Source: an uncultured Verrucomicrobiota bacterium
GTDB lineage: Bacteria > Verrucomicrobiota > Verrucomicrobiia > Opitutales > Seribacteraceae
Assembly (NCBI GenBank): GCA_902618175.1
Contig: CACMZN010000015.1
Coordinates: 1-44,551 of the forward strand
Length of the DNA stretch: 44,551 nucleotides
Direction of reading: 5' to 3'
Both the position numbers and the translations under genes were made by a program. The notes under the pieces are model-generated. The model saw only the letters and a list, made by a program, of their open reading frames with translations, did no database searches and had not been told where the DNA came from. Position 1 is the first letter of the stretch. The number at the start of each line of letters is the position of its first letter. Below, piece after piece: positions 2,191 through 44,551 of the stretch.

Positions 2191-5100
2191 TTACAAATAA
2201 TTAAGTAGAGAATTATTAAGCAGTTGAGCACCGACTTGCATGGCTGCTTGATAAGCCGTGGATACTCTTGTCAAACGCATGATTGCTTCCGAAAGATCTA
2301 GGTCCAAATCACGAGACACTCGTTTGTCGATTTCCATGAAGTAGTCTTCATCATGAGCCCGGACTGTCTCCATGCGAACAAGACTTGCGCTGATCTGACC
2401 CATGCTGTTAATTATCGTGTTTTCTTGCGCAAGCAAAGTTTGTTCAGCACCTTCCAACAAATCGTTGGCTTCAGCTGGGTTTTGAGACATCAAACCTTCT
2501 CTGAGGTCAATCATTGCAGATATGCTACTGGCGAGTTCCTTCGTATTTCCACCCTCTGCACTGAGAAACGAAGAGACCTTACTGTCTTTTCCTATGAAAA
2601 ATTCAGAGTTTTCATCAGATCCCATGTAAGTGACGCTTTTTATGTTTCCTTCTTCATCGCGATGATCTAGAAAAGTTTTGGTTCCAGTGGCAAAGGAAAA
2701 GGTATCTCCTATTTCGGCACCATCCTGCAAAGCGTGAATTCTCTCGCTCAAGTTTACAGGATCGTAAGTGCCCACCGACCCAAGTTTCAGATCATCGGGA
2801 CTTATGATAAGAGAAGTGTTCGCCACATAATATCTGTTGTATTCTGGATCAAAAAGCTGATCACCTGGATTCAAAACATAATCCTCTTCTCTGGATTCTA
2901 CGATTTTTTGGATAACTCCTGTTCTGGGAGTCTCATCCAAAACAAACCCCGTCACTTTAAAGGGACCTGGATCATTGCTGTCTGATCCCCAAATGATTTT
3001 TGCACTTAATTTCGTCCCATCTTCAGTAAGAATGGTGGCAGTATCAAATTGAGGAGGGACGTTGCCTTCCGCGTCCAAACCGAAAAAATATCTTCCCCTA
3101 TCCTCAATCTTCAGACCCACAACTTGACCGTTTGCATCGATGACTGCCTTTGCCTTTGCATCTACACCTGCCCTTCCTGAAAGAGGAATGGAAACTTCTG
3201 GTGGGTTATCTGGCTCAACTTCGAACATCAAAACATGATCAAGCGGTTCGCCAACTTGAATCCAGCGGTTGTTGGGAACGGTGACTGTGTTGTTGGCAGA
3301 ATCCGTAACCACGAATCCACTATCGTCCAAAAGAGGAATTTCCTCGTCGTTGGGCTTGATGGTGACAATTTCAGAAGAAGAACCTGCGCCGGTACGTACA
3401 AGGGCAGAATTGCCCCCCGTATAGTCTATCCTTTGGTAATATTTGCCTTCGAAAAGAACAATCTGGTTGTAATCGTAGTGTGAATCATACGACCACTCCA
3501 TTCCCTGTTGATCTGCCCTTACACTTATGTCTCCCGGATCAAGTACTTCACCAACTGGCCTAAAATCCGATGAATTAGATTTTATTTCTCCTATTGCAAC
3601 TGGATCAGAGGGTGTCTTCAAAGCAACATAATATAAATCCTCTTCCGGGTCGTAAACGTAATCCCCTTTCTCAACTGAAACCAAGTCACTTCCCTCAAAG
3701 ATGATCTCTTTGCCTTCGGTAGGTAAATGATCTCCAAGCAAAAAAACATTTCCATCTGAACGGGCTGTAATTTCAGCGAGACCCGATACACTCGACAAGT
3801 CTTCTGTTCCGGACAAGGAAACGTTCTCCGAAGCCAGATAGTAAGTGTTGACTTCATTTTCGGAGTGAAGGACATGCTCTCCTCTAGCTACCTCTAAGCT
3901 TTCCCCTTTATAAAAAGTATGGACAACTCCGGTAGGTGGAAATTCGAGCTGCAAATCTTCGAAAATTTCAGTATCCAAACTTCCAGGTTCGGTGATCAAA
4001 TAATACTTTCCTTGAAAGGAAACCACTTGATTTCTCATACTTTCCGAGTCCAACGCTGGATCTCCGAGAATGGACTCAACCTCATTCATTTCCAAAATAT
4101 TTCCTTTTATGAAAAGACCATCGTAAATTTGTCCATCCTTTGGAACAGCGGACAAGCGATAATGCATAGTTTCGGGATCGAAAGCAATATGACCTTGGTG
4201 ATTGGACCCGTTTGCTTCCATCTCGCCCACCCCCAGAAAAACTTTTCTAATGGGCCAGACATCCGCTTCGGCTTCTTTGGAATAAAGTGGATCATCGGGA
4301 GACATCTTAGAGAATATGTACTGAGAATAATGATTTTCCGCATCCACTTCGTCGGTGAACAACTTACCGTCAGGAGCCATGTAAAAAGGCTTCTTTTGCT
4401 CGCCCACAACTTTTATCTCCCAGTCCTCCCTCCTTTGGTCATAACCACTTGGCAATTCTCTCCAATATGTTGCACCTGAATTCGCCGGATCGTGGTTGAA
4501 ATTAAGATCAGTTTTTGATTCGTAAAGAATTCCATCCTTTTGGACTACGTCACCAATATAATAGTAATCGAGTCGACGCCAGTTGTCGGCATGAACAATG
4601 TTTAGTCCAACCATACCCTCGCTCGGATTTTGATCTACTGAAAGTTCACGGGTGATATATCCGGCAAACACTGCAGACCTTACTAGATCCTGTTGCTTGG
4701 ATGAAAGGGATTGAAAGGATTCACCAGGAAATTGTAGTTCAGTTTCAAGGGCAAGTTGATCATTGATCCAATCACCCGAAAAAACCTTTTGTTCAATGAT
4801 CGCTTGTTGATCTGCGGAAAGATCTGTAAATTCGAGGGTACTGCTTTTGTCTGGCACCGCATTTAAAAATTGCTCACGAAGAACCAGGTTGTCAAAGAAT
4901 GCATTGCGAACCATCTCTTGAGCAGCACCATCCAAATCGTTATAACCTAGATAATCACCTGAATCGAATCGAGCCTTTAAAATATCACTTTTGTTTTCGA
5001 CCAAAAATTCAGGCAGATTGGTAATCGTTAAAACATGATTTTCTTGCGGGTTCATTTTATAAAAACCATTTTCGTTCTCTCCAACTGCTTCCAATTGATA

Positions 5101-6276
5101 TTTGCCTGACAACGGATTGGTGGAAATTGTATATAATCCTGAACTGAGTTCATCGTTGTTCGTCAAGTCTTGGATTTGTGCATCCGAAAATTCAAACACA
5201 TGCGGTATGCTGAGAAGGGTTTGGTAGTTCAAACCTTCAATAATCTCATCGATCGACTCTGCTTCGCTATCGAACAGTTCATTCATCTTTTGAGATGAAA
5301 ATACAGAAAATCTAACAATTTCCTGCTCCATCTCACCTAAGTCTTGAAATCCCGAACCAGGGTACCGAGCATTTGCTTCTTCATCCAATTGTCTGTTCAA
5401 TTGTTCAGGAAAATAGAAATTTGGATCCCAACGATGTACGAATTGAGCGGTGGCGGAAAATTTCTTTCCGACGTTTCCAGCAACTTCGAGTTCACCTCCT
5501 GGAGTAACTTTAGCAATCAGATGCAAATCTGGATCGTTCAAGTTGACAAAGTTTAGATGTGGACGAACAAAAGCTTTGAAATTGGCATTTTCATCGTCGA
5601 AAATAGGTGATTCTGCCAGCGTTCCTTTGTCGTTGTTAATCAAATTTTTCAATGTCGCAAGAAGTTCATTGGACAACAAACCATCGGTCTTTGCTTCAAC
5701 GACATATTCTCTACCATTCAACTGCAAAATCACCTGCTCCCCAGTGATCAGACTACGTTGGCCATCCCTGCGTGACGCACCAACCAAGTTTTTATCCAAA
5801 GAAAAGGTAACTGTCTGAGACTCTCCCCTCTCAACTATTGAACTACCAAATTCAGGCTTCAATTGGGTTCCACCGAACAAAGCCCTATCCCGGTGCTTTG
5901 CGTTCAGACGATTCAGGGCTTCCTCAACTAATTCATTGATCTCGTATGCATAAGTTTCATTTGCTGTCGCATTAAGTCCTGTGCCTGCAAGACGAACAAT
6001 CTCCTGACCACGTGTATTGAGTTTATGGAAATGATCCAGATTCAAATGACCTGCATTCAAAAATTCTGAAGCATATGATGCATTTCTCTGATACTGAGAA
6101 AGTGTACTTTTCTCCGTATCCAATGTAATTACTCTACCCATTCTCAATCCATCATCTTCAGGAAGAGTGATTTTCTGACCAGATGAAATTTGAGCATTCA
6201 AGCGAATCCGATCCTGCTCCAATTGACGAATGGTGCTAGTCACTTGCTCGGATGTGCTAAGGTTGGATACTCTCAT
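2191..6276 (-). CDS. flgL: FlgL, giant modular hook-filament junction protein (HAP3)
   Basis: FlgL joins hook to filament and is secreted through the flagellar export gate. The ends are normal: the N-terminal helices (residues 1-140) start with MRVSNLSTSEQVTSTI and contain RALFGGTQ; the C-terminal helix (about 1240-1361) carries AIMRLTRVSTAYQAAMQ and ends LLNNSLLNYL. Typical FlgL is 300-450 residues; this one has 1361. The insertion holds four helical repeats (292-546), a CBM5/12-like unit (563-608) with W565 and W605, further GD/E-x-V...YY units near 748, 798, 870, 936 and 1137, and a glycine/tyrosine repeat near 1040-1075. No cysteines are apparent, as expected for an exported axial protein. 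It follows flgK by 15 bases. The functional role of the insertion is unknown. Confidence 0.93.
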   Translation of the reverse strand: MRVSNLSTSEQVTSTIRQLEQDRIRLNAQISSGQKITLPEDDGLRMGRVITLDTEKSTLSQYQRNASYASEFLNAGHLNLDHFHKLNTRGQEIVRLAGTGLNATANETYAYEINELVEEALNRLNAKHRDRALFGGTQLKPEFGSSIVERGESQTVTFSLDKNLVGASRRDGQRSLITGEQVILQLNGREYVVEAKTDGLLSNELLATLKNLINNDKGTLAESPIFDDENANFKAFVRPHLNFVNLNDPDLHLIAKVTPGGELEVAGNVGKKFSATAQFVHRWDPNFYFPEQLNRQLDEEANARYPGSGFQDLGEMEQEIVRFSVFSSQKMNELFDSEAESIDEIIEGLNYQTLLSIPHVFEFSDAQIQDLTNNDELSSGLYTISTNPLSGKYQLEAVGENENGFYKMNPQENHVLTITNLPEFLVENKSDILKARFDSGDYLGYNDLDGAAQEMVRNAFFDNLVLREQFLNAVPDKSSTLEFTDLSADQQAIIEQKVFSGDWINDQLALETELQFPGESFQSLSSKQQDLVRSAVFAGYITRELSVDQNPSEGMVGLNIVHADNWRRLDYYYIGDVVQKDGILYESKTDLNFNHDPANSGATYWRELPSGYDQRREDWEIKVVGEQKKPFYMAPDGKLFTDEVDAENHYSQYIFSKMSPDDPLYSKEAEADVWPIRKVFLGVGEMEANGSNHQGHIAFDPETMHYRLSAVPKDGQIYDGLFIKGNILEMNEVESILGDPALDSESMRNQVVSFQGKYYLITEPGSLDTEIFEDLQLEFPPTGVVHTFYKGESLEVARGEHVLHSENEVNTYYLASENVSLSGTEDLSSVSGLAEITARSDGNVFLLGDHLPTEGKEIIFEGSDLVSVEKGDYVYDPEEDLYYVALKTPSDPVAIGEIKSNSSDFRPVGEVLDPGDISVRADQQGMEWSYDSHYDYNQIVLFEGKYYQRIDYTGGNSALVRTGAGSSSEIVTIKPNDEEIPLLDDSGFVVTDSANNTVTVPNNRWIQVGEPLDHVLMFEVEPDNPPEVSIPLSGRAGVDAKAKAVIDANGQVVGLKIEDRGRYFFGLDAEGNVPPQFDTATILTEDGTKLSAKIIWGSDSNDPGPFKVTGFVLDETPRTGVIQKIVESREEDYVLNPGDQLFDPEYNRYYVANTSLIISPDDLKLGSVGTYDPVNLSERIHALQDGAEIGDTFSFATGTKTFLDHRDEEGNIKSVTYMGSDENSEFFIGKDSKVSSFLSAEGGNTKELASSISAMIDLREGLMSQNPAEANDLLEGAEQTLLAQENTIINSMGQISASLVRMETVRAHDEDYFMEIDKRVSRDLDLDLSEAIMRLTRVSTAYQAAMQVGAQLLNNSLLNYL

Positions 6277-6291
6277 AAATTTGATTTACAA

Positions 6292-9200
6292 CTACCTAAT
6301 CAGACTCATCACTACCAGTTCGAGCATTTTGTCGAGGGTATTTAAAACCCGAGATGAGGCCTGAAACGATCTTTGGAATTGCATCAAATCTGCTACTTCT
6401 TCATCAATCGAAACTGCACTTACTGCTCTTCTCTGATCAAGAAGCAGAGATTCTACGCTGTTTTGATGGGCAATGTTATCATTCAAATCTGCCGCCGAAT
6501 TTCCAATCGCCGTATTCATGTCAGATATGGCTTGTGAAAATTTTCCATTCGACATTTCAGCTATGGCGAGAGCAACGTCGTTGGCTCCCTCAGCAAAATC
6601 AAAAGTTGCTATGATTGACTTTGGGGTAAGGTCATCATCCATCCTCAGACTTGAAGCCAGGTTCCAAGAATTATTCAGCACAGCATCAAAAGAAAAGCTA
6701 TCTCCCAGAGCAAACATCTTAGTACCGGGCGTAACTTTGAATGGAATAGTTTCATAAGCCAAAAGTAAGGATCTACCATCATCTTCATTTCCCAAAACAC
6801 GATCATCTCCGGGAAACTCAGAATCAAGTTCGGTAGTTACGAATTTCATCCTCCGACCTTCACCATATAGAGAAAAGTCCGTGATATCGTAAAACAGATC
6901 ATAATTCTCTTGCAGAGGATAACTGTCTGGATCGATTCCGGTCAATTCCTGTTCATTAAGCAGATGCTCCTTATATTCGTTGGGAAAAACTAAAGTCGAA
7001 TTTACTACTCTGAATGTATCGCTCTCGGCATAAGGCAAAGTCATATCCACCTCATCCCTGTAAACTTTCATTTCCCCGTTACCTTCAGCTCCATAGATCG
7101 GACTGGTCAGTCCATAATTCAGATAATCTTCTGCCCAGATCGGATTCATATCCTGAGTTGCTCTGGTTAGGTTTGCATCGAAGCCAAACAGATATGCTCC
7201 TGGTTCGTCATTCGGGTTGTAGATTTCATTGGTTGCCAGAACAAAATCGCTAACCAGAGAATTAAGCGATTGCCTGAAGGTATCCATCTCACCGAAACGA
7301 ACCTCCTGGTAACCTGATATCGATCCTGATTCCAATTTCAACTCAATTCCATCCACGAAAACACCATCTGATGAGGGAAAGGAGATTCCCTCATTAAGGA
7401 TATTAAATCCGGTGATTTCTCCATTCTTAACCGTAGCCTCCGCAACTCCTAAATTTAATTTCTGGAGCGTCCCATTTTCCAAATTGTAACCGATTGGAGC
7501 TGATTTCCTCAAAAATTCATTCGAGTCTCCGCTTGGATCAATTTGTTGAGGATCAAAAACATGGAAATAATTAGACCACTTTTCGTCGTTGGGATTGAAA
7601 GAATCAAAATCTTGCTGATTCCAAAGTATGAGTTGATCTGAAGAAATTGCGGGAATAGTACCTGGGTTCGAATGCACCAAGAAAAAGGTCTTCTCCTCAG
7701 GATTTTCATCGCTTTCATACGCATACACCTTGCCGGTTTGATCAAAAGAATAATATTCGATTGGTTGATCATCCTGTGACAATTGAACCTGCAAGTCGAT
7801 TGCCTCTTCTATGAAAGCGTTTACCTGAATGTCATCAGTGGTATCATTAAGACTGCCAACCAATACATCGTATTCGGTATTTCCATCTACATCTTTCCGA
7901 ACGATTCCGTTTTTAACATAGTAGCCATTTTCATCAGGTTCTTCAGTCAGATTGGAAAATTTGGGCAAAGCATTGCCCAAATTATAAAAATCAAGTGAAA
8001 GATCCGGATCATCAACGGATAAATCAGCTCCTGCTGCTATGTTGCGTATCGCCTGATAATATTGAAAGTCTCCGCTTTCTTGAGGGTACCTAAAGACTTC
8101 ACCAGCCTGATATGAACGAACCGTAACTGTGGTTGCAGTTCCTGATGCTACACCGATCTCCTGTTTGACGTTGGCAAAGTTACCGATGGTGATTTGAGGA
8201 CCGAGGTTTTGCAATCCATTGAATTCATTTTCCAAATCAGAAGGCAGGGTTGAAATGTCACTCCCAGATGGAAGTCCGTCCGCGGCAGTCACCAAATAAT
8301 AATTTCCTTCGAAAAACATAACATCTCCATTGTCATATGATTCTCCGGTAACGGTTCTGATGTCCTCTGAAGGAGTCCCAGGTTCGAGTAAAACGGGGGC
8401 AACTTCAGTTCTGGCTTGGTAAAGTTGATCTTCATACAAAATCTGTTCACCGACCAAGAAGGAATCCAAATGAGAATACTTGAGCTTAGTTTCCTCCACA
8501 AATCCATTCGGAGCCGAGCTGATTTGCATGAATTTTTTTTCATCCGACAAGGCATCATCCTTCTGCGTATCTGAAAGGGCTTGGTAATAAGACCCTCCCT
8601 GATAAAAAACCTCGCCTTCCTTTCTAGCTATGAAAGAGTTGCTCGAAGAATGATTTAAAGCTTCTGCTTGAGTTGAAGAAAGAGCAACTCCTCTATCCGT
8701 TGCCATTCCATTTGCAGGAGCATTTAAAGTTGCCGCTTCGTTATCTGCAGTAACTGCAATCCCATTTTCAATGTCTGGAAATGTTACTTGGTCACCAATA
8801 ATCTGAGTGGGTGCAACATCGCTATCGGTTGATTCCAAAATGTCTACTGATTCATTCGACTTTGGGGGAAAAAGAGTAACAATGAGGGGATTTTCCGAGT
8901 CATCGTACTTAGATCCACCATTCAGAACTTCAAGTCTACCCAACTTACCTTCAGCGTCAATTTTTGCAGTCACGCGGGCAGGTTGTCCAGTAGGGTCTTC
9001 AGGAAGAGCAACGTTGAATTCCTGACCCCATTGGTTTTGTAGAAATCTTTCTCCTGTAGAATCAAGCAGGACAACGTTTTCCCCGTTTGTTCCACTTGCG
9101 AACAAGTTAATGAAACCGGTGGGCTTTCCACCCAGCGTTTCTTCCTCTACCTCAAAGTCTATAATTTGAGCTAGTTCTTCCAAAAGGGCTTGCCTGCGGT

Positions 9201-9858
9201 CACGATAGGATACCGCTTTGCCTCGGTCCTGTAGTTCAAACCTGCGTACTTGTATATTTACCTCGTTGATCTGAGCAAGGATACGATTTGCATCATCAAT
9301 CGACCTTCGAACGGTTTCGGTCAAGTCTGCATCAATTTCGTCGAAACTTGAACCCGCTTCGTTGAACCTCTGGGTTAAAGTCTGAACAGCATAAAAAAGG
9401 CTCTGTTTGATCGTAGGATCATCCGGGGATGCCGATAACTCCTGAAATTTATTGAAAAATTCATTTAGGGCATGTGAAAGACTACCTGGGGCTAGATCCG
9501 AATTGTAAGAATCATTAAGTCCGGCATTGATCCCTTCACGAGTGATCTTCTCACCCAATGCACCTTGCAGCAGATCCACAATCTCCTTTCTGGCCGTTAG
9601 GGAAGCTGTTTCTCCAAGTTCACGTACAACCCGCTTATCCAGCATTACGCTTCTTGCATGATCCAATCCGGAGGACTCAAGACCTGAAGTCTGAAGACCG
9701 CCAAAATTACCATGCATTACACCTTCTCGAGTGAGAACTCTTTGTCTGGCGTAAGACTCGTCATCCACATGAGCTAGGTTTTGACCTGCAATCTCCGCAG
9801 CCTTTGCATGATAGCGCAAAGCCTCACTGTTTTTACTGATTTCTCCTAAAAGTGACAT
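6292..9858 (-). CDS. flgK: FlgK, giant modular hook-filament junction protein (HAP1)
   Basis: FlgK is the first junction protein above the hook. The N-terminus (MSLLGEISKNSEALRYHAKA, then AGQNLAHVDDESYARQRV) and the C-terminal helix (EEVADLMQFQRSFQASSRVL, residues 1153-1172) are canonical. Family members are usually 450-650 residues; this one has 1188. The centre (about 240-1050) carries repeated beta units with the pattern G-D/E-x-V...YY-x-A at about 414, 469, 510, 585 and a weaker copy at 708, plus two NG-type repeats at 294-333 and 804-840. The same unit types occur in FlgL, so the two proteins share an insertion vocabulary. It is downstream of its likely chaperone gene flgN, with a 19-base gap. 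Confidence 0.94.
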   Translation of the reverse strand: MSLLGEISKNSEALRYHAKAAEIAGQNLAHVDDESYARQRVLTREGVMHGNFGGLQTSGLESSGLDHARSVMLDKRVVRELGETASLTARKEIVDLLQGALGEKITREGINAGLNDSYNSDLAPGSLSHALNEFFNKFQELSASPDDPTIKQSLFYAVQTLTQRFNEAGSSFDEIDADLTETVRRSIDDANRILAQINEVNIQVRRFELQDRGKAVSYRDRRQALLEELAQIIDFEVEEETLGGKPTGFINLFASGTNGENVVLLDSTGERFLQNQWGQEFNVALPEDPTGQPARVTAKIDAEGKLGRLEVLNGGSKYDDSENPLIVTLFPPKSNESVDILESTDSDVAPTQIIGDQVTFPDIENGIAVTADNEAATLNAPANGMATDRGVALSSTQAEALNHSSSNSFIARKEGEVFYQGGSYYQALSDTQKDDALSDEKKFMQISSAPNGFVEETKLKYSHLDSFLVGEQILYEDQLYQARTEVAPVLLEPGTPSEDIRTVTGESYDNGDVMFFEGNYYLVTAADGLPSGSDISTLPSDLENEFNGLQNLGPQITIGNFANVKQEIGVASGTATTVTVRSYQAGEVFRYPQESGDFQYYQAIRNIAAGADLSVDDPDLSLDFYNLGNALPKFSNLTEEPDENGYYVKNGIVRKDVDGNTEYDVLVGSLNDTTDDIQVNAFIEEAIDLQVQLSQDDQPIEYYSFDQTGKVYAYESDENPEEKTFFLVHSNPGTIPAISSDQLILWNQQDFDSFNPNDEKWSNYFHVFDPQQIDPSGDSNEFLRKSAPIGYNLENGTLQKLNLGVAEATVKNGEITGFNILNEGISFPSSDGVFVDGIELKLESGSISGYQEVRFGEMDTFRQSLNSLVSDFVLATNEIYNPNDEPGAYLFGFDANLTRATQDMNPIWAEDYLNYGLTSPIYGAEGNGEMKVYRDEVDMTLPYAESDTFRVVNSTLVFPNEYKEHLLNEQELTGIDPDSYPLQENYDLFYDITDFSLYGEGRRMKFVTTELDSEFPGDDRVLGNEDDGRSLLLAYETIPFKVTPGTKMFALGDSFSFDAVLNNSWNLASSLRMDDDLTPKSIIATFDFAEGANDVALAIAEMSNGKFSQAISDMNTAIGNSAADLNDNIAHQNSVESLLLDQRRAVSAVSIDEEVADLMQFQRSFQASSRVLNTLDKMLELVVMSLIR

Positions 9859-9877: not shown

Positions 9878-10405
9878 TTATGCAGACTCGTTCAGACTTG
9901 AACGATCGCTGGAAAGACGATTGAGGTTTCCGCTCCTTGTGTAGGTTTTAGAATGAGAACTCGGTGAGGCAATGCTGAGAATCTTGTCGGTAACCTCCGT
10001 CAATCGGTTGAGCAAACGTTGATTTTGCTCGATTTTTCGACGAACTTGTGAAATCAGTTTGTTAATTTCCTCTATCAAACTCTCAAACATAGGTTTAGTA
10101 ACTTCCGGGAAATGGGGTAACAATTCACTTAAAGTGGAAGAAGATGACTCCCCATAGCACTGAGCCAGAGAGGAAACAAAACTTTCTCTACGCTTCAACA
10201 AAATCTGACTCGCTTCCATTTGATTTTGCACTGATTGATTGATTTCCAGAATTCCATCAGGGCGACGATTGAGAATGTTTTGTTGCTGAGCATCAAGCAG
10301 ACCCAAAAGACCACCGTATTCCTGTAATTCGTCTCGAAGCAACCCCAGTAAATCCTCCCAGCTAAAAGCAAGATTCCGACTTGGTTTTTGAGCCAATTGC
10401 ATCAT
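9878..10405 (-). CDS. flgN: FlgN-like export chaperone
   Basis: The product is a 175-residue, mostly helical protein matching the FlgN family by its layout: LLGLLRDELQEYGGLLGLLD near the N-terminus, then a helix with QNQMEASQILLKRRE, and later helices ending in a Ser/Arg-rich tail. FlgN binds the C-terminal helices of FlgK and FlgL in the cytosol and delivers them to the export gate. Here the clients would be unusually large proteins encoded immediately downstream. The start is at an ATGATG overlapping the TGA stop of flgJ, which implies translational coupling. The family call rests on helical pattern and position more than on invariant residues. Confidence 0.8.
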   Translation of the reverse strand: MMQLAQKPSRNLAFSWEDLLGLLRDELQEYGGLLGLLDAQQQNILNRRPDGILEINQSVQNQMEASQILLKRRESFVSSLAQCYGESSSSTLSELLPHFPEVTKPMFESLIEEINKLISQVRRKIEQNQRLLNRLTEVTDKILSIASPSSHSKTYTRSGNLNRLSSDRSSLNESA

Positions 10406-10753: not shown

Positions 10754-11869
10754 TCAATTTATTATTAATTCAGCCTGCAGGGCACCTGCGTTCTTTATGG
10801 ACTGAAGTATTGAAGTCATTTCCCTTGTGGTAAGACCCAGTTTATTCAACGCAGAAGCAAGTTCATTGACGGTGGAGGCACCAGGAGGATCCAGTTCATC
10901 CAAAGTTTCAAATCTACCAACTTCTTCGATAAGCTCAGCATTTTCGCCAGGTAAGATTGTAGTGGCACCTTGTGAGAAAGGTAGAGGTTGACTCACGCCT
11001 GTCGTCGGATTCAGAAAAATCGTGATATTGCTGCTGCTGACGGCTACAGGAGAAATGCGTACACTCTGCGTGGCAACTATAGTTCCAGTTCTTTCGTTGA
11101 TGATTACCCTCGCTGGTACATCGGGCTTAACTTCAATCGATCCAACGGCAGCAAGGAAGTTTGTGGTTTGACCTCTAAAATCCAGGGGAAGTTTAATGTT
11201 TACGACCCCCGCGTCAGTTGCAATGGAAGTACCAGGATAATATGTGTTTATGGCATCCGCCATCTTCACGGCGGTGGCGGAATCAGGTGAACGCAGTATC
11301 AAATCAATCGAATCACCGCTCAGTATTCTACTTTCGATCTCTCTCTCCACTAAAGCTCCGTTACTTACGATTCCCACTGTGGGATGATTGACTTGGACAT
11401 TGGCTCCTCCTGCATTTCCAGCAGATAAGCCACCAATCGAAACAGGACCTTGCGCCACTGAGTAGACTTTTCCATCAGCGCCGTAAAGGGGAGTTTGCAG
11501 GAGGATTCCTCCTTGCAGGGCATCTGCATTACCAATCGAGGATACGGTTACATCCATCCTCGATCCTTCTTTGGCAAAAGGTCCAATGTCGGCTGTAACC
11601 ATAACGGCTGCTATGTTCCTTGACTTATCTGCCTTGTCAGCACGAATCCCCAAAGATTCCAGTGCGTTCAAAATTCCCAATTCAGTGTATTCGATTCTCG
11701 AATCACCCTGACCATCCAAACCCGTTACAATACCGTAACCGTAAAGTTGATTACTTCGACTACCTCTGACATCCGTCAAGTCTTTTATCCGAGCAGAATA
11801 AACGGAAGAACTCCAAAGCAGGACACTTAGGAGAACAAGGGCGGAAAAGAGATTTTTTTTCAATCTCAT
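10754..11869 (-). CDS. flgI: FlgI flagellar P-ring protein
   Basis: The 371-residue product is of normal family length. It has a Sec signal peptide (basic MRLKK, a hydrophobic core, then a cleavage-like VYSA near residue 26). The mature start is canonical: ARIKDLTDVRGSRSNQLYGY followed by GIVTGLDGQGDS. Further landmarks are VMVTADIGPF and, near the C-terminus, LNKLGLTTREMTSILQSIK. FlgI is secreted to the periplasm and polymerises around the rod as the P-ring bushing, helped by FlgA. The gene order flgA-flgH-flgI with gaps of 2-4 bases indicates tight co-translation. Its presence argues for a diderm envelope with peptidoglycan. Confidence 0.97.
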   Translation of the reverse strand: MRLKKNLFSALVLLSVLLWSSSVYSARIKDLTDVRGSRSNQLYGYGIVTGLDGQGDSRIEYTELGILNALESLGIRADKADKSRNIAAVMVTADIGPFAKEGSRMDVTVSSIGNADALQGGILLQTPLYGADGKVYSVAQGPVSIGGLSAGNAGGANVQVNHPTVGIVSNGALVEREIESRILSGDSIDLILRSPDSATAVKMADAINTYYPGTSIATDAGVVNIKLPLDFRGQTTNFLAAVGSIEVKPDVPARVIINERTGTIVATQSVRISPVAVSSSNITIFLNPTTGVSQPLPFSQGATTILPGENAELIEEVGRFETLDELDPPGASTVNELASALNKLGLTTREMTSILQSIKNAGALQAELIIN

Positions 11870-24940: not shown

Positions 24941-25189
24941 TCACGAAGGGGAATCTACAATCTCAGTGATCTTCAATCCGAAACGGTCATCGATGACAAC
25001 CACTTCCCCGTGAGCGATAAGCTTTCCATTGACCAGCAAACCAACCGGATCTTTCGCATTTTGTTTTAATTGAATTTGAGCTCCCGGGCTCAATTCAACA
25101 ACCTCTTTCATAGGAAGTTCCGCTGTTCCAAGTTGGACTGTGACGCTTACCTTCACATCCATTACAATATCCATTTTCTTACTATCCAT
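24941..25189 (-). CDS. fliN: FliN flagellar switch protein (short form)
   Basis: With the start at ATG 25189 the product has 82 residues: a short lead then one SpoA domain, including VTVQLGTAELPMKEVVELSP, AQIQLKQNAKDPVGLLVNGK and GEVVVIDDRFGLKITEIV. Family members are often 100-140 residues with an extra N-terminal extension that is missing here. The reading frame remains open upstream, but that part overlaps fliM in another frame and is not conserved, so I rejected the longer version. The ATG overlaps the fliM stop by eight bases. FliN forms the lower C-ring with FliM and docks FliH. Confidence 0.93.
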   Translation of the reverse strand: MDSKKMDIVMDVKVSVTVQLGTAELPMKEVVELSPGAQIQLKQNAKDPVGLLVNGKLIAHGEVVVIDDRFGLKITEIVDSPS

Positions 25190-26195
25190 GTTTTTTTCCA
25201 ATGAGTTTAACGGCCTCGGCAATACTTTCATTAACTTGGAAAGCAACTTGATCCCCTTCCAAACCGATTTCTCCGACAAAGCAAGTTCTCCCCTCAATCC
25301 GTAGTTTGGTGTTTTCCAAAAGCAACGGAGACATTTCAATGACGTCGTCCACTTCCAAATTCGAAAGATCTCGCAAAGTAAGTTCGAATGCATCCCACTC
25401 AGCCGATATTCTCACTGGAATGCTGTCGTAAACGTCATGCCATCTAGGTGGTCGTGAAATCTTTTTTTCTTCGTTGGAATCAGAGGCCAGCAATCGACTT
25501 AGGACAGGTTCCATCGTGTAGTAAGGAACAGAAACGCGGAGGGGTCCTGATACGTCTCCGAAAGAAGCTTCCATAGCCATTGTAAGCATCATCGCGTCGT
25601 TAGGAGAGGTTTGTAAAAATTTACCCGTACTCTCTGTTCCAATGATAGTGGGGTGCAAGCTCATAGTACTTTCCCATTGCTTGCACCACTCTTCTAAAAT
25701 GATTTGATTGAAATCTTCAACCAAAGCCTTTTCAATGTCTGTAAGACCTCTTTCTTCGGGATTGGTGGAACCTCTACCCCCCAAAATCCGATCCACCACG
25801 GTAGCGGAAAGATGAGAATTTACGTCAAGTAAACCAACACCATTAAGTTCCTGTAGTTTGAACAAGGTAACACAAGATGGGTTCTTGATTGACTGAGTGA
25901 AATTCGAATAGAGATCGGCGGAAAGGCTTTCGAGTTCAAGGTTAAACTCGGTTCTCAAAAACATCGATAAATGTCCTGCCAAATAATATACGAATTGCTG
26001 AGACTTGGTATTTAGTTTACTCAAGTCCGAATCAGATAAAACGATTGGATTCGTAAAGTCGTATGGCTTGATGGAAAAGCTGGAAGAATCTTGAATCCTA
26101 GTTCCGTCATAGAGAAACAAAGGCTCGGTATTATTCGAACTTGAAATTTCACTTATGTCGAAGCTTTCGTCGGCAAAACTTTTTTCTTCCGGCAT
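25182..26195 (-). CDS. fliM: FliM flagellar switch protein lacking the usual CheY-binding motif
   Basis: The product has 337 residues. The middle CheC-like domain includes ATVVDRILGGRGSTNPEERG (GGRG at 139-142) then LTDIEKALVEDFNQIILEEW. The C-terminal SpoA domain spans about 262-330 (SIPVRISAEWDAFELTLRDL). The N-terminus (1-50) is acidic and Ser-rich and does not contain the LSQxEIDxLL peptide that binds phospho-CheY in most species. FliM normally transmits CheY signals to FliG for direction switching. The gene lies between fliL (18 bases) and fliN (overlap). Switching may use another input. Confidence 0.95.
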   Translation of the reverse strand: MPEEKSFADESFDISEISSSNNTEPLFLYDGTRIQDSSSFSIKPYDFTNPIVLSDSDLSKLNTKSQQFVYYLAGHLSMFLRTEFNLELESLSADLYSNFTQSIKNPSCVTLFKLQELNGVGLLDVNSHLSATVVDRILGGRGSTNPEERGLTDIEKALVEDFNQIILEEWCKQWESTMSLHPTIIGTESTGKFLQTSPNDAMMLTMAMEASFGDVSGPLRVSVPYYTMEPVLSRLLASDSNEEKKISRPPRWHDVYDSIPVRISAEWDAFELTLRDLSNLEVDDVIEMSPLLLENTKLRIEGRTCFVGEIGLEGDQVAFQVNESIAEAVKLIGKKHG

Positions 26196-26784: not shown

Positions 26785-27636
26785 CTATCGCTTGAGATTA
26801 ATCGCTTCGGATAAAATCATGTCTGATGTGGTTATGACGCGGGATCCTGCCTGAAAGGATCTTTGATGAGAAATCATGGCTGCAAACTCGTTTGTGAGGT
26901 CAACGTTGGAAAGTTCCAGGGCATACTGTTTGATTTTCCCATTGGAGCCGGATGCAGGGACTGCATTGTCGAGAATCCCACCAAGGTCTTGTCCAGCTCC
27001 GCCATTCGAGTAAAATCCATTGCCGACCCTTTTAAGTGCTTGTGGAGATTGAAAATTAACCAGCTTGACTTGTCCGGGACTCCTAATTTCATCCTTCCCA
27101 TCTTTGGATACTACAAGATTGACCACACCCGTTTGTTCAACCCTTCTTGCCAAAAGAAGCTCATCATCCTCCAATCCAACCGAAAGTGGACCATTTACCC
27201 CCTGAAGTTGATATTGGTATTGATCACGGGTCACAACAAATCCTGCTGTGGTTGCTTCGAAAGCTCCCCCTCTAGTGTAAAATAGATCACCAGTTTCGGC
27301 ATCAATCACTTCAAAGAATCCACCTGCGTTTGGCAATGCTTCTCCTTGAATGGCCAAATCCAAGTCCAAACCAGTTACTTCTATACTGCCCTGATTGAAG
27401 TCGGAAGTAATGGATCCGACATGAACACCAGTACCATGACTCAAAACATTACTACTTGGTTGTCCATCACCACCTGCTTCAGCATCGTTGATGTGCTGAT
27501 AAAAGTTATCTGAGTAATTGGCACGCGATGACTTGTAACCGAGGGAGTTAACGTTTGAAATATTGTTACCGAGTACCTGCAGACCTTGTGTCAAACTCTT
27601 CAGAGCAGAAACTCCACTATGCAAGGAAGGAATCAT
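26785..27636 (-). CDS. flgE: FlgE flagellar hook protein, minimal form
   Basis: The product has 283 residues. Its N-terminus (SGVSALKSLTQGLQVLGNNI then SNVNSLGYKSSRANYSD) and C-terminus (ALELSNVDLTNEFAAMISHQ then RSFQAGSRVITTSDMIL) are typical of FlgE. Position after flgD and content of DLDLAIQGEA...GGFFEV and LFYTRGGAFEAT support the hook rather than rod assignment. E. coli FlgE has 402 residues and many others are larger; here the outer D2-type domain seems absent, leaving D0/D1. It starts with an ATGA overlap on flgD. FlgF/FlgG paralogues are separately encoded, so this is the best hook candidate in the window. Confidence 0.85.
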   Translation of the reverse strand: MIPSLHSGVSALKSLTQGLQVLGNNISNVNSLGYKSSRANYSDNFYQHINDAEAGGDGQPSSNVLSHGTGVHVGSITSDFNQGSIEVTGLDLDLAIQGEALPNAGGFFEVIDAETGDLFYTRGGAFEATTAGFVVTRDQYQYQLQGVNGPLSVGLEDDELLLARRVEQTGVVNLVVSKDGKDEIRSPGQVKLVNFQSPQALKRVGNGFYSNGGAGQDLGGILDNAVPASGSNGKIKQYALELSNVDLTNEFAAMISHQRSFQAGSRVITTSDMILSEAINLKR

Positions 27637-28070
27637 AATTGCGGGGTTGGTATACTCACCTTGGAAATGTTGACTGGGTCATAACCCTTACCTCCGACAA
27701 CTACTGCAATCGAACCATCATCAGATTTCTCCACTGAATCAACCACACCCGAAATTTGATCCGATCCATCCTTGATTACGACTTCGCGACCTAGATAAGC
27801 TTGAGCAACCAAATCTTTCTGGGAACTGGCGAAACTTTCAAATCCTTTGGTGAATTGTTGCATTTGTTCGAGGGATGCAATGTTTGCCATTTGCGATATA
27901 AACTCCGTGTCCTTCATTGGTTCAAGTGGGTCTTGATTACTAATTTGACTAGTCAAAAGTTGTAGAAAATCCTCCATTTGCATGTATGCCCCGTTTTTGT
28001 CAGATTCGCTCGTGGAATTGGGCGATCTTGGATTAGCGATGGAATTCGTTGCTGTCAGTGCATCTATCAT
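27633..28070 (-). CDS. flgD: FlgD hook cap/scaffold protein, short form
   Basis: The product has 145 residues. The N-terminal assembly segment is canonical: MEDFLQLLTSQISNQDPLEP followed by MKDTEFISQMANIASLEQMQ. The following SH3-like segment (GREVVIKDGSDQISGVVDSV) is present, but the C-terminal fibronectin-type domain found in about 220-residue FlgD proteins is missing. FlgD caps the growing hook and is exported early. It sits 12 bases after fliK and overlaps flgE by four bases, the standard fliK-flgD-flgE order. Confidence 0.93.
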   Translation of the reverse strand: MIDALTATNSIANPRSPNSTSESDKNGAYMQMEDFLQLLTSQISNQDPLEPMKDTEFISQMANIASLEQMQQFTKGFESFASSQKDLVAQAYLGREVVIKDGSDQISGVVDSVEKSDDGSIAVVVGGKGYDPVNISKVSIPTPQL

Positions 28071-29067: not shown

Positions 29068-29733
29068 CTAATTGGGTAGAACGGCTGATGGATCATTGAG
29101 ATTTAGACTCGGCAAAAGTCCACGGTCTCTCATTGCCAATGCGTCTGCGAGTTCGATCAAAGAATCATCGTCACTACTGAGCATAAAGGCAATAATTGGA
29201 GCTTTTTCTTCAGCCTTCAAAAACTCGAAAATGGTGAGTGCTTCCTCAAACCGACGTTTCTGTCTCCAATTCTGGATCTCGATGCTTGCTACTTCGGGTC
29301 CCATTTCCGTCCATCTCTTTGAGGTGTCCTTATATTCTCTGAGTTTTTCCTCGCTTAAATCCTGACCTTGCTTGGATTCAAAATCGGCTAGTCTGGAAGC
29401 AAGGTCCTCTCTTATTTGATTAAGTTCCTTTTTTTGCTTGTCGAGGGATTTCATGTCCATTGCGATTGCCGATTCCCGAGCATCCAGATCATTTTCACGA
29501 AGAATCAGTCTTTCCTTAAGAGCCGATAGTTCTTTGGACAACTGATTCATCGAGTGAGTTTCAGCAGGAGAATAACTGGTGTCGTCGGCATCGAATTCGA
29601 TGCTGGTGAACTCTGCCTTTATCTGTGGTTTGGGCTTTGATAATATATCCTTGTTTAACCAAAGCATAACTCCGGCACTGGAAACGGATAAAAGAATAGC
29701 TAGAATAACTATGAAGATTGGTGGCATTTTCAT
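29068..29733 (-). CDS. MotE-like coiled-coil membrane protein
   Basis: The product has 221 residues. One N-terminal membrane helix (about 4-25, PPIFIVILAILLSVSSAGVM) is followed by a long coiled coil (about 62-130, heptads with many Leu, Glu and Lys) and a C-terminal helical domain resembling the MgtE-N-type region of MotE: EEALTIFEFLKAEEKAPIIA then a run of Leu/Ala helices. MotE/FlbB proteins lie near fliK or fliJ and contribute to motor assembly in several phyla. It overlaps the fliJ stop by four bases. The exact subfamily is uncertain. Confidence 0.7.
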   Translation of the reverse strand: MKMPPIFIVILAILLSVSSAGVMLWLNKDILSKPKPQIKAEFTSIEFDADDTSYSPAETHSMNQLSKELSALKERLILRENDLDARESAIAMDMKSLDKQKKELNQIREDLASRLADFESKQGQDLSEEKLREYKDTSKRWTEMGPEVASIEIQNWRQKRRFEEALTIFEFLKAEEKAPIIAFMLSSDDDSLIELADALAMRDRGLLPSLNLNDPSAVLPN

Positions 29734-43049: not shown

Positions 43050-44551
43050 TCAGGAGAATTTAATCCATTCTTGGGAAACATATATGTAAGCCCAACCCTT
43101 TCCCGATGAGTCTACCGTGAGATAAATCCAGCCATTTAGTGTATGACTGTAGACGAATCCCGTTCTTTCCGATCCAACGAAGTAGGTATCTCTCGTCCAT
43201 AACCAACCGAAATTCTCTTTCCAAAACCAAAATCCTTCTTTTTTGAAGGTATCTTCCAGATAAATCCAAGAAAATTCCGGTGAAAAAGCCCATCCTGAAT
43301 CGGTAAGCATTACGAAACCAAACCAATTACTGACCCATCCAAGTTCGTCATTGGAAGAATCTGATGCTGTCTTTGGAACTGCAACTTCCAATGAAATCGT
43401 CTTGCTTGTCATTAATCCAATTTCATCTTCAAGGCTGATAATCACTTGGTGAAAACCGAGATGTTCCTTTGTCGCGAATCCATGGAACATTACTTTTTGA
43501 TCTCCGACCAATTTACAATTCACCCAACTGGGCATATCGGTGGTTATGGAAATATTTTCTCCCTCAGGATCAAAGACCTCGACTTCAAACGAAAAATCGT
43601 ACCCGTATGGGACAACTTCGTTGGAATTGGAGCGAATTATTGGTTTTCGAGAAGAACTGGGCACCAATTCAAAGTTGAAATCAACCACCATTCGGTCACC
43701 CATTTGAGACACGACCTCGAAAACGACCCTTTGGTCGCCGGCATGATCGGGTGCAATTCCCGATAGAATACCTCTGCCGCTTGGCTCCATGGCAATCGTC
43801 AACCAAGTCGGAAAATCGATCTTGCGGATTGTGAACTCATTATTCTCAATTCGCCAAGGCCCGGAGTCAAAGGAGTATTCGAAGGGCTTTCCGGCAGAGA
43901 CTAGATTTGGCGAGGGATTAAGTAATTGAATTTCGGAGTCCATTTCCGCCATTTTTCCAAGGAAAGCCTTGGAGAGGTATTCATTGCTCAGTGTGACAAC
44001 GGAAGAATCTGTACTGTAGCCTCCGATGAAAAGGGAAGCGGCATTGTATGAGTGAATTGTTTGAATCACATCATCACCAGAGCCACCAAATGATCTCGAA
44101 TCCAAAACTGAGAGATCGGAAAGATCCACCTTGGCGATAACTGAATCCTGCAAACCCTTCGACGAGTGAACAACCCCGTCAAGATTTAGAATTCCTTGAA
44201 ATCCAGCTGCAAGCAAGGCTCTGTTGCCATGATCCATCTCCAAGTCGAAAAAAGAATCTTCTCCGGATCCGCCGAATCCTCTCATACCCTCAAGGGAAAA
44301 AGTTTCCGGATTTAATTTGGCCAAAAAGAAGTCTTCTTCCCCTTGACTCAGTAATTGGCTGCTGCCAATTCTAAAATGATTGTCGAAAACACCTGCGATC
44401 AGCAAATGTTTTTCACTCGAATCAAGAGTCAACTTCTTTGCCGCCACTCGACTCTGTCCCGAAATATCAAGAGTGTTTGATTCGATTCCGTTTGGATCCA
44501 GCTTAAGCAAAAAGGAACCATCTCCCTCGGAAATCAGAGTTTTTCCTGCTA
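43050..44551 (-). CDS. Secreted multidomain protein with tryptophan-rich C-terminus (3' part)
   Basis: The frame is open to the right edge, so only the C-terminal 499 or so residues are present. The first part shows repeated beta-propeller-like units around GFGGSGEDSFFDLEMDHGN and SFGGSGDDVIQTIHSYN. Two Ig-like putative domains follow (about 195-285 and 287-376 counted from the TTG at 44510), one with LSGIAPDHAGDQRVVFEV, the other with DPEGENISITTDMPSW. The last 100 residues are rich in Trp, Tyr and Phe with repeats such as LGWVSNWFGFVM, GFWFWKENFGWLWT and GWIYLTVDSSGKGWAY. I recall such tails in secreted proteins of Opitutales-type Verrucomicrobia. Function is unknown; surface localisation is likely. 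Confidence 0.7.
   Translation of the reverse strand, partial: AGKTLISEGDGSFLLKLDPNGIESNTLDISGQSRVAAKKLTLDSSEKHLLIAGVFDNHFRIGSSQLLSQGEEDFFLAKLNPETFSLEGMRGFGGSGEDSFFDLEMDHGNRALLAAGFQGILNLDGVVHSSKGLQDSVIAKVDLSDLSVLDSRSFGGSGDDVIQTIHSYNAASLFIGGYSTDSSVVTLSNEYLSKAFLGKMAEMDSEIQLLNPSPNLVSAGKPFEYSFDSGPWRIENNEFTIRKIDFPTWLTIAMEPSGRGILSGIAPDHAGDQRVVFEVVSQMGDRMVVDFNFELVPSSSRKPIIRSNSNEVVPYGYDFSFEVEVFDPEGENISITTDMPSWVNCKLVGDQKVMFHGFATKEHLGFHQVIISLEDEIGLMTSKTISLEVAVPKTASDSSNDELGWVSNWFGFVMLTDSGWAFSPEFSWIYLEDTFKKEGFWFWKENFGWLWTRDTYFVGSERTGFVYSHTLNGWIYLTVDSSGKGWAYIYVSQEWIKFS

Follow-up and report, generated by a model that had tools for sequence, protein, structure and literature searches.

The window analysed here is the whole 44,551-nt stretch at positions 1-44,551 of contig CACMZN010000015.1 (assembly GCA_902618175.1), from an uncultured Verrucomicrobiota bacterium (Opitutales; Seribacteraceae) whose genome is available as a 94-contig assembly of 2 Mb that is 67% complete. 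Within its flagellar cluster flgL adjoins flgK and flgN, and we examined the products of the first two genes, the hook-filament junction proteins FlgL and FlgK. A sequence-only reading of the window had described both as giant and modular, with normal ends and large central insertions that share unit types, a description which our analysis bears out. Compared with a normal-sized reference locus of the same order (L038; FlgL of 297 and FlgK of 476 amino acids, aa), FlgL (1361 aa) carries an excess of 1064 residues and FlgK (1188 aa) one of 712, making them more than four times and more than twice the usual size. FlgL matches TIGR02550 at 127.5 bits (cut-off 127.2) and Flagellin_N at residues 3-122, and its ends align with those of the reference FlgL, with FlgL-type terminal regions present. 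FlgK matches FlgK_D1 at 101.5 bits (cut-off 28.6) and Flg_bbr_C at residues 1147-1180 (36.8 bits), and reaches 151.8 bits with TIGR02492, under the cut-off of 170.75.

The FlgL insertion lies between the two conserved ends, and that of FlgK in two places between the D1 helices, part of the second (about residues 890-1075) occupying the place of the ordinary D2 (Table 1). The insertions of the two proteins are not unrelated. A main unit of about 45 aa, with the pattern Y..GD.V...G..YY.A, recurs in both. When position-specific scoring matrices (PSSMs) from hand-aligned unit cores picked by eye (five in FlgK, six in FlgL) were scanned against the insertion of the other protein, neither the summed score nor the number of hits above 6 bits was reached by any of 1000 shuffles, in both directions; the single best match was reached by 13 and 3 of 1000. 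Since these units had been picked by eye, the test was redone with seven hidden Markov models (HMMs) built from relatives only. Two of them match the window's other protein above all 300 shuffles (FlgL unit 5 at FlgK 506-521, 10.4 bits versus 3.5 for shuffles; FlgK unit 3 at FlgL 934-951, 9.5 versus 5.1 bits), and the other five fail to cross between FlgK and FlgL. A second shared type, A.A.V...G.V..L.I...G..Y (FlgL 1040; FlgK 294 and 803), gives a best match reached by 3 of 1000 shuffles in one direction and by none of 1000 in the reverse direction. Four copies of a third type, which is helical, occur in FlgL alone, for the most part within a segment missing from many relatives. As BLASTP of FlgK against FlgL returned nothing better than E 0.05, the sharing is at the level of motifs.

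Relatives were found by a scan of named genome contigs with FlgI, which gave 48 loci, 35 of them (L005-L039; FlgI identity 52-93%) assigned to the window's group. Their records are labelled as metagenome-assembled genomes or, judging by name (our own reading), are single-cell genomes, and the labels of 34 of the 35 are Verrucomicrobiota, Verrucomicrobia, Opitutia, Opitutae or Opitutales. One contig labelled Flavobacteriales (L016) has a FlgI 87% identical to that of the window and is probably mis-binned. Among near relatives, defined by a FlgI identity of at least 66% (the reference L038 stands at 52%), all 25 complete FlgKs are giant (1022-1724 aa), as are all 19 complete FlgLs (930-1483 aa). 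These counts exclude FlgKs cut by contig ends (L005, L027, L031) or stopping after 371 aa with the end of the contig 46 bases away (L033), FlgLs cut by contig ends (L006, L010, L011, L015, L025, L039; L010 and L039 are one assembly), and loci without flgK (L016, L017, L023, L029, L037). Of the alignments, A4 comprises every row free of unknown residues, and A5 holds 20 of 26 possible rows, the long or divergent L022, L025, L026, L028, L032 and L039 being omitted. The number of units and the length of spacers vary among relatives, with alignment gaps of up to 0.94.

At the level of the order, FlgK_D1 was found in 61 of 223 genomes, 21 in the window's family and 40 in other families. The FlgK open frame is at least 1059 aa in 17 of the 21 family genomes; of the four shorter frames (912, 665, 372 and 228 aa), three run to the first bases of their contig and are apparently cut, the fourth being that of G218. 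In the 40 genomes of other families FlgK does not exceed 601 aa except in G206, whose 1062-aa frame, without CBM5/12-like units by eye, was set aside as probably alien, which is unproven: it overruns the end of a 3.6-kb contig. Across the phylum FlgK_D1 was found in 46 of 387 genomes, and only the window's own FlgK is longer than 556 aa. For FlgL, among the matches listed (flagellins included), frames of the window's family measure 940-1482 aa when those at a contig start are set aside, and in other families, again among the matches listed, FlgL is about 290-340 aa once starts are taken, except in G011 (513 aa) and G072 (480 aa, matches spanning about 430, no CBM5/12-like units by eye). Two other long frames (G181, 987 aa; G202, 438 aa) become 298-aa proteins once the start is taken. 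With FlgK as query, a scan of genome contigs gave no match, and the plasmid collection four records with remote FlgK ends. Giant size is a trait of the window's family: it is not general in the phylum, nor is it confined to the window's genome.

Several lines of evidence indicate what the main unit may be, namely a relative of carbohydrate-binding module (CBM) families 5 and 12. The Pfam family CBM_5_12 (curated cut-off 26.2 bits) was found, with E no higher than 0.1, in 19 of 21 aligned FlgLs, the window's being one of the two without, and in 6 of 27 FlgKs; in individual scans, three of five FlgLs and one of two FlgKs of relatives exceeded the cut-off. Taken by position at E up to 1, it matches 18 of 20 L1 units and 15 of 20 K1-K3 stretches. 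The best match of the L1 profile in the PDB is All3316, from the baseplate of an Anabaena injection system (7b5h, E 0.0013), which single L1 units also match (E 0.06 and 0.0051). The profile further matches the chitin-binding domain of a chitinase (2rts, E 0.0052) and chitin deacetylases (E 0.0067), two tandem units of which are spanned by the K1-K3 profile at just E 0.25. There is a weak PHROG tail-fibre match at FlgL 565-613 (unit L1), and tail-fibre matches occur also in the fold searches of both proteins and in the L1 profile search. Within L1 the W, G, N.N, P and last W are invariant in 20 of 20 rows, and the His between N.N and P is nearly so.

Structure models predict that the insertions are in good part ordered. 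The FlgK model has a mean predicted local distance difference test score (pLDDT) of 70.0 and a predicted template modelling (TM) score of 0.65, and 708 of its 1188 residues have a pLDDT of at least 70; block means are 61-88 in K1-K3 (411-560) and low at 1-70, 337-404 and 611-672. The FlgL model (residues 105-1300) has a mean of 66.2, with 609 of 1196 residues at 70 or more, unit L1 at 82-88 and a poor helical-repeat region. Fold search with FlgK returned solved FlgK first, then a phage baseplate protein (E 0.01). Of the 50 matches listed for FlgL, 36 are chitin deacetylases, chitinases or chitin-binding domains (many being repeat entries), and two are clean single-domain matches, 2d49 (root-mean-square deviation 1.4 over 45 columns, target TM 0.69, probability 0.99, E 0.50) and 1wvv (root-mean-square deviation 1.8, probability 1.00, E 0.29), for which the output does not say which FlgL unit matched.

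Enlargement extends beyond the junction. FliD_N was found in 18 of 42 genomes of the window's family; nine relatives' FliDs measure 760-2063 aa, and at seven relatives' loci a flagellin of 668-1007 aa is encoded 2.7-2.9 kb from fliD and divergently from it. CBM_5_12 exceeded its cut-off in two of four FliDs scanned (G027, 43.1 bits; G045, 28.5 bits) and was weak in two of three giant flagellins. As no FliD was found in the window's 67%-complete genome, the FliD evidence comes from relatives only; a weak FliD_N match there (E 0.167) is unlike FliD when read. The main unit itself is present in the 829-aa flagellin of the window's genome (L062:8386-10872; four matches above 8 bits versus a maximum of two in 200 shuffles), eight smaller flagellin frames of that genome having none. 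By the same comparison it is present in some relatives' FliD and flagellins: more matches than in any shuffle were counted in the FliDs of G027, G223 and G210 and the flagellins of G045, G215 and G074.

Flagellins are numerous in these bacteria. On contigs C28, C42 and C43 (L062-L064) of the window's genome, 15 matches to Flagellin_N exceed the cut-off, FlgL and one match on C16 coming in addition, and there are 14 matches to Flagellin_C. At least 14-15 flagellin genes, most of 290-370 aa, lie on the three contigs. Among relatives the number of Flagellin_C matches rises to 20 (G215). In G210 a 2090-aa frame with flagellin ends (L081:1448-7717) has no CBM-like unit matches and, by eye, contains stretches resembling beta-propeller (PQQ-type) repeats, another kind of insertion.

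A number of results weigh against a CBM5/12 identity or against its reach. All of the window's own units are under the Pfam cut-off: one of ten window fragments matches CBM_5_12 (FlgL 922-1010, unit L5; E 0.24), at a best score of 11.9 bits versus 26.2, the window's K1-K3 gives 11 bits, and its L1 gives no match. In the fold searches, Vibrio chitin deacetylases follow the two leading FlgK matches at E just 0.03-0.12, and no FlgL match has E below 0.001. Chitinase A1 presumably contacts chitin through an exposed Trp; HMMER aligns this position to Phe in unit L1 of L034, and the L1 residue there is Asp in the window and elsewhere mostly Lys, Asp or Ser. Beyond the junction, CBM_5_12 does not match FliD of G205 and G223 or the 829-aa flagellin, and 13 of 20 giant FliDs and flagellins tested do not exceed the shuffle maximum. 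We regard fold and family profile as jointly good evidence that the main unit is CBM5/12-like, neither alone being proof. The conserved N.N, P, His and final Trp of L1 suggest that something is still selected, be it binding of another glycan or plain folding.

With regard to origin, FliD frames in three genomes of other families are 565-600 aa, and one genome outside the giant family (G011, family f11) appears to stand between the extremes. Its FlgK is normal (frame of 465 aa), its 513-aa FlgL (L089:2809-4347) has, by eye, one CBM5/12-like unit and second-type copies, and its FliD (frame of 813 aa) has one CBM5/12-like unit, also by eye. The FlgI-only tree places f11 beside the giant family with support of 93/91, below the starred level. 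The f11 lineage is a likely evolutionary intermediate, and the data read most naturally as a stepwise build-up that started with FlgL and FliD, although this is not proven.

In the explanation that we favour, FlgK and FlgL would be working junction proteins that polymerise through their ordinary terminal helices and whose middles have been built up with small beta modules, chiefly CBM5/12-like, facing outward. In Salmonella 11 FlgK lie below 11 FlgL, with D0 domains facing the channel (PMC12221982). If the rings are alike, each junction would display 11 x (5 + 6) = 121 modules. Within the window's family FliD, the cap protein, and one giant flagellin would have gained such modules too, and the most likely use of the modules would be multivalent, individually weak binding of extracellular polysaccharide, by which the flagellum could hold particles, gels or other cells. 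That junction, cap and one flagellin were enlarged by CBM5/12-like modules, with probable polysaccharide binding, seems to us slightly better than an even bet. More tentatively, the whole outer flagellum past the hook (FlgK, FlgL, FliD and the giant flagellin beside fliD) may be a multivalent glycan-binding organ, at once propeller and polysaccharide grapple. The sequence-only reading had proposed an exposed and perhaps adhesive collar at the junction. Its matched modular pair stands, and a binding role is plausible because the main unit is CBM5/12-like; the junction as a special place does not stand, since relatives' FliD and one flagellin are giant too, some with the main unit, and a junction collar is too narrow a description.

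The modules could instead be mechanical, non-binding spacers that make the junction, the cap and a portion of the filament thicker and stiffer, and they would have been reused as small and stable beta units that lack cysteine and can pass through the export channel. Such a use fits the loss of the Trp that we take to contact chitin, and fits the window's FlgK and FlgL, neither of which contains a cysteine. Giant flagellins, moreover, make thicker filaments (PMC6248924). On this view, however, invariance of polar and aromatic positions in unit L1 would not be expected, and the choice of one CBM-type module that occurs in chitinases, in the tail fibres of phages and in the baseplates of injection systems is left unexplained; we consider a purely mechanical role rather unlikely. 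The variation in unit number and spacer length among relatives would suit a shield or decoy, with insertions that cover the outer flagellum, guard it from proteases, grazers or phages that use flagella, and vary under that pressure, but K1-K3 and L1 are well conserved and not hypervariable, unlike a surface that escapes recognition, which makes this improbable. An origin of the long frames in faulty assembly or in fusion of genes, a concern that a 94-contig, 67%-complete assembly might raise, can be dismissed with near certainty, as unbroken frames of the same architecture occur in 25 (FlgK) and 19 (FlgL) other loci, mostly from separate assemblies.

Table 1 Positions in the window of the junction genes, their insertions and units, and selected neighbours
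Feature	Position	Strand	Remarks
flgL	2191..6276	-	1361 aa, normal ends, one long insertion; frame complete
FlgL insertion	2677..5853	-	about residues 142-1200; alignment A2 with L038 FlgL
FlgL helical repeat 1	5284..5349	-	residues 310-331
FlgL helical repeat 2	4879..4944	-	residues 445-466
FlgL helical repeat 3	4765..4830	-	residues 483-504
FlgL helical repeat 4	4651..4716	-	residues 521-542
FlgL unit L1	4441..4593	-	residues 562-612; best conserved CBM5/12-like unit
FlgL unit L2	3925..4059	-	residues 740-784; hand-aligned unit/PSSM analysis
FlgL unit L3	3763..3909	-	residues 790-838; hand-aligned unit/PSSM analysis
FlgL unit L4	3541..3693	-	residues 862-912; PSSM analysis and relatives' HMMs
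FlgL unit L5	3412..3513	-	residues 922-955; PSSM analysis and relatives' HMMs
FlgL second-type unit	3085..3159	-	residues 1040-1064
FlgL unit L6	2767..2913	-	residues 1122-1170; absent from most relatives
flgK	6292..9858	-	1188 aa, normal D0/D1 ends, two-part insertion; frame complete
FlgK insertion, first part	7324..9003	-	about residues 286-845, approximate limits; alignment A1 with L038 and model helices
FlgK second-type unit, copy 1	8905..8979	-	residues 294-318
FlgK units K1-K3	8179..8667	-	residues 398-560; three CBM5/12-like units in tandem
FlgK unit K4	7984..8133	-	residues 576-625; PSSM 6.8 bits; relatives' K3 HMM at 576-614, 28.9 bits
FlgK candidate unit K5	7615..7752	-	residues 703-748; by eye; missed by FlgL-derived PSSM
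FlgK second-type unit, copy 2	7378..7452	-	residues 803-827; weaker
FlgK insertion, second part	6634..7191	-	about residues 890-1075, approximate limits; alignment with L038 and model
flgN	9878..10405	-	export chaperone gene directly upstream of flgK; Pfam FlgN E 5.2e-20
flgI	10754..11869	-	match to solved FlgI, E 3.3e-81; query for finding relatives
Small flgE candidate	26785..27636	-	283 aa; matches solved FlgE and FlgG

Upstream of the junction genes are flgF, flgG, flgN and a gene for a rod-binding protein; downstream of them are fliW and csrA. The FlgE candidate is under the cut-offs of the NCBIfam FlgE/FlgG models, and the frame at 27633-28070, of 145 aa, has a match to solved FlgD (E 2e-5). 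With candidates of 283 and 145 aa, the contrast between a giant junction and minimal FlgE and FlgD, drawn in the sequence-only reading, holds. Elsewhere in the window, a 221-aa protein (29068-29733) weakly matches FlbB, a collar protein of the spirochaete periplasmic flagellum, in a non-spirochaete (NF047368, E 2.5e-8, 33.9 bits versus a cut-off of 110). The listed fliN frame (24941-25393) overlaps fliM (25182-26195) by about 210 bases, and as the FliN domain begins at residue 73, the true start is probably later than listed. A 486-aa protein (43050-44510) has, by eye, a Trp-rich C-terminal stretch with GW.. repeats.

Within one family, four axial proteins are linked by a single type of module, and the series from normal through intermediate to giant within a single order provides material for studying the build-up of an organelle. 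If binding is true, the modules would point to a way in which these marine bacteria stay attached to polysaccharide. Among open-licence papers, our literature search found no case of junction, cap and flagellin enlarged by a shared carbohydrate-binding-type module. In fold and core pattern the units are like the CBM5/12 of chitinases and chitin deacetylases, and differ in that the presumed chitin-contacting Trp of chitinase A1 is not kept and the carrier is flagellar, not an enzyme. Phage tail fibres and contractile-injection baseplates carry similar CBM-like units (All3316, 7b5h) on unrelated proteins and machines.

Outer domains that vary are well known from flagellin, and single ones are found in FlgK or FlgL. 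Among junction proteins, extra outer domains are present in the FlgL of Campylobacter jejuni, whose D2 is bulky, and in the FlgK of Burkholderia pseudomallei, which has a third domain, D3 (PMC12221982, PMC5691160). Whereas those have one extra D2-kind domain, here many CBM5/12-like units are found in both proteins, and units also occur in relatives' FliD and one flagellin. Flagellinolysins resemble the present case in placing a functional domain in the variable region of an axial protein; there it is a metallopeptidase, an enzyme in flagellin, whereas the module here is of a binding type and extends to FlgK and FlgL (PMC5595980). The giant flagellins of marine gammaproteobacteria (Bermanella, Oleibacter) also exceed 1000 aa through stepwise enlargement of the middle region, but that study, in the part available, covered flagellin only and reported no similarity of the insertions to enzyme domains (PMC6248924). 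The authors of that study raise in print the question whether the remaining parts of the flagellum are of matching size, and the enlargement of junction, cap and one flagellin described here bears on it (PMC6248924).

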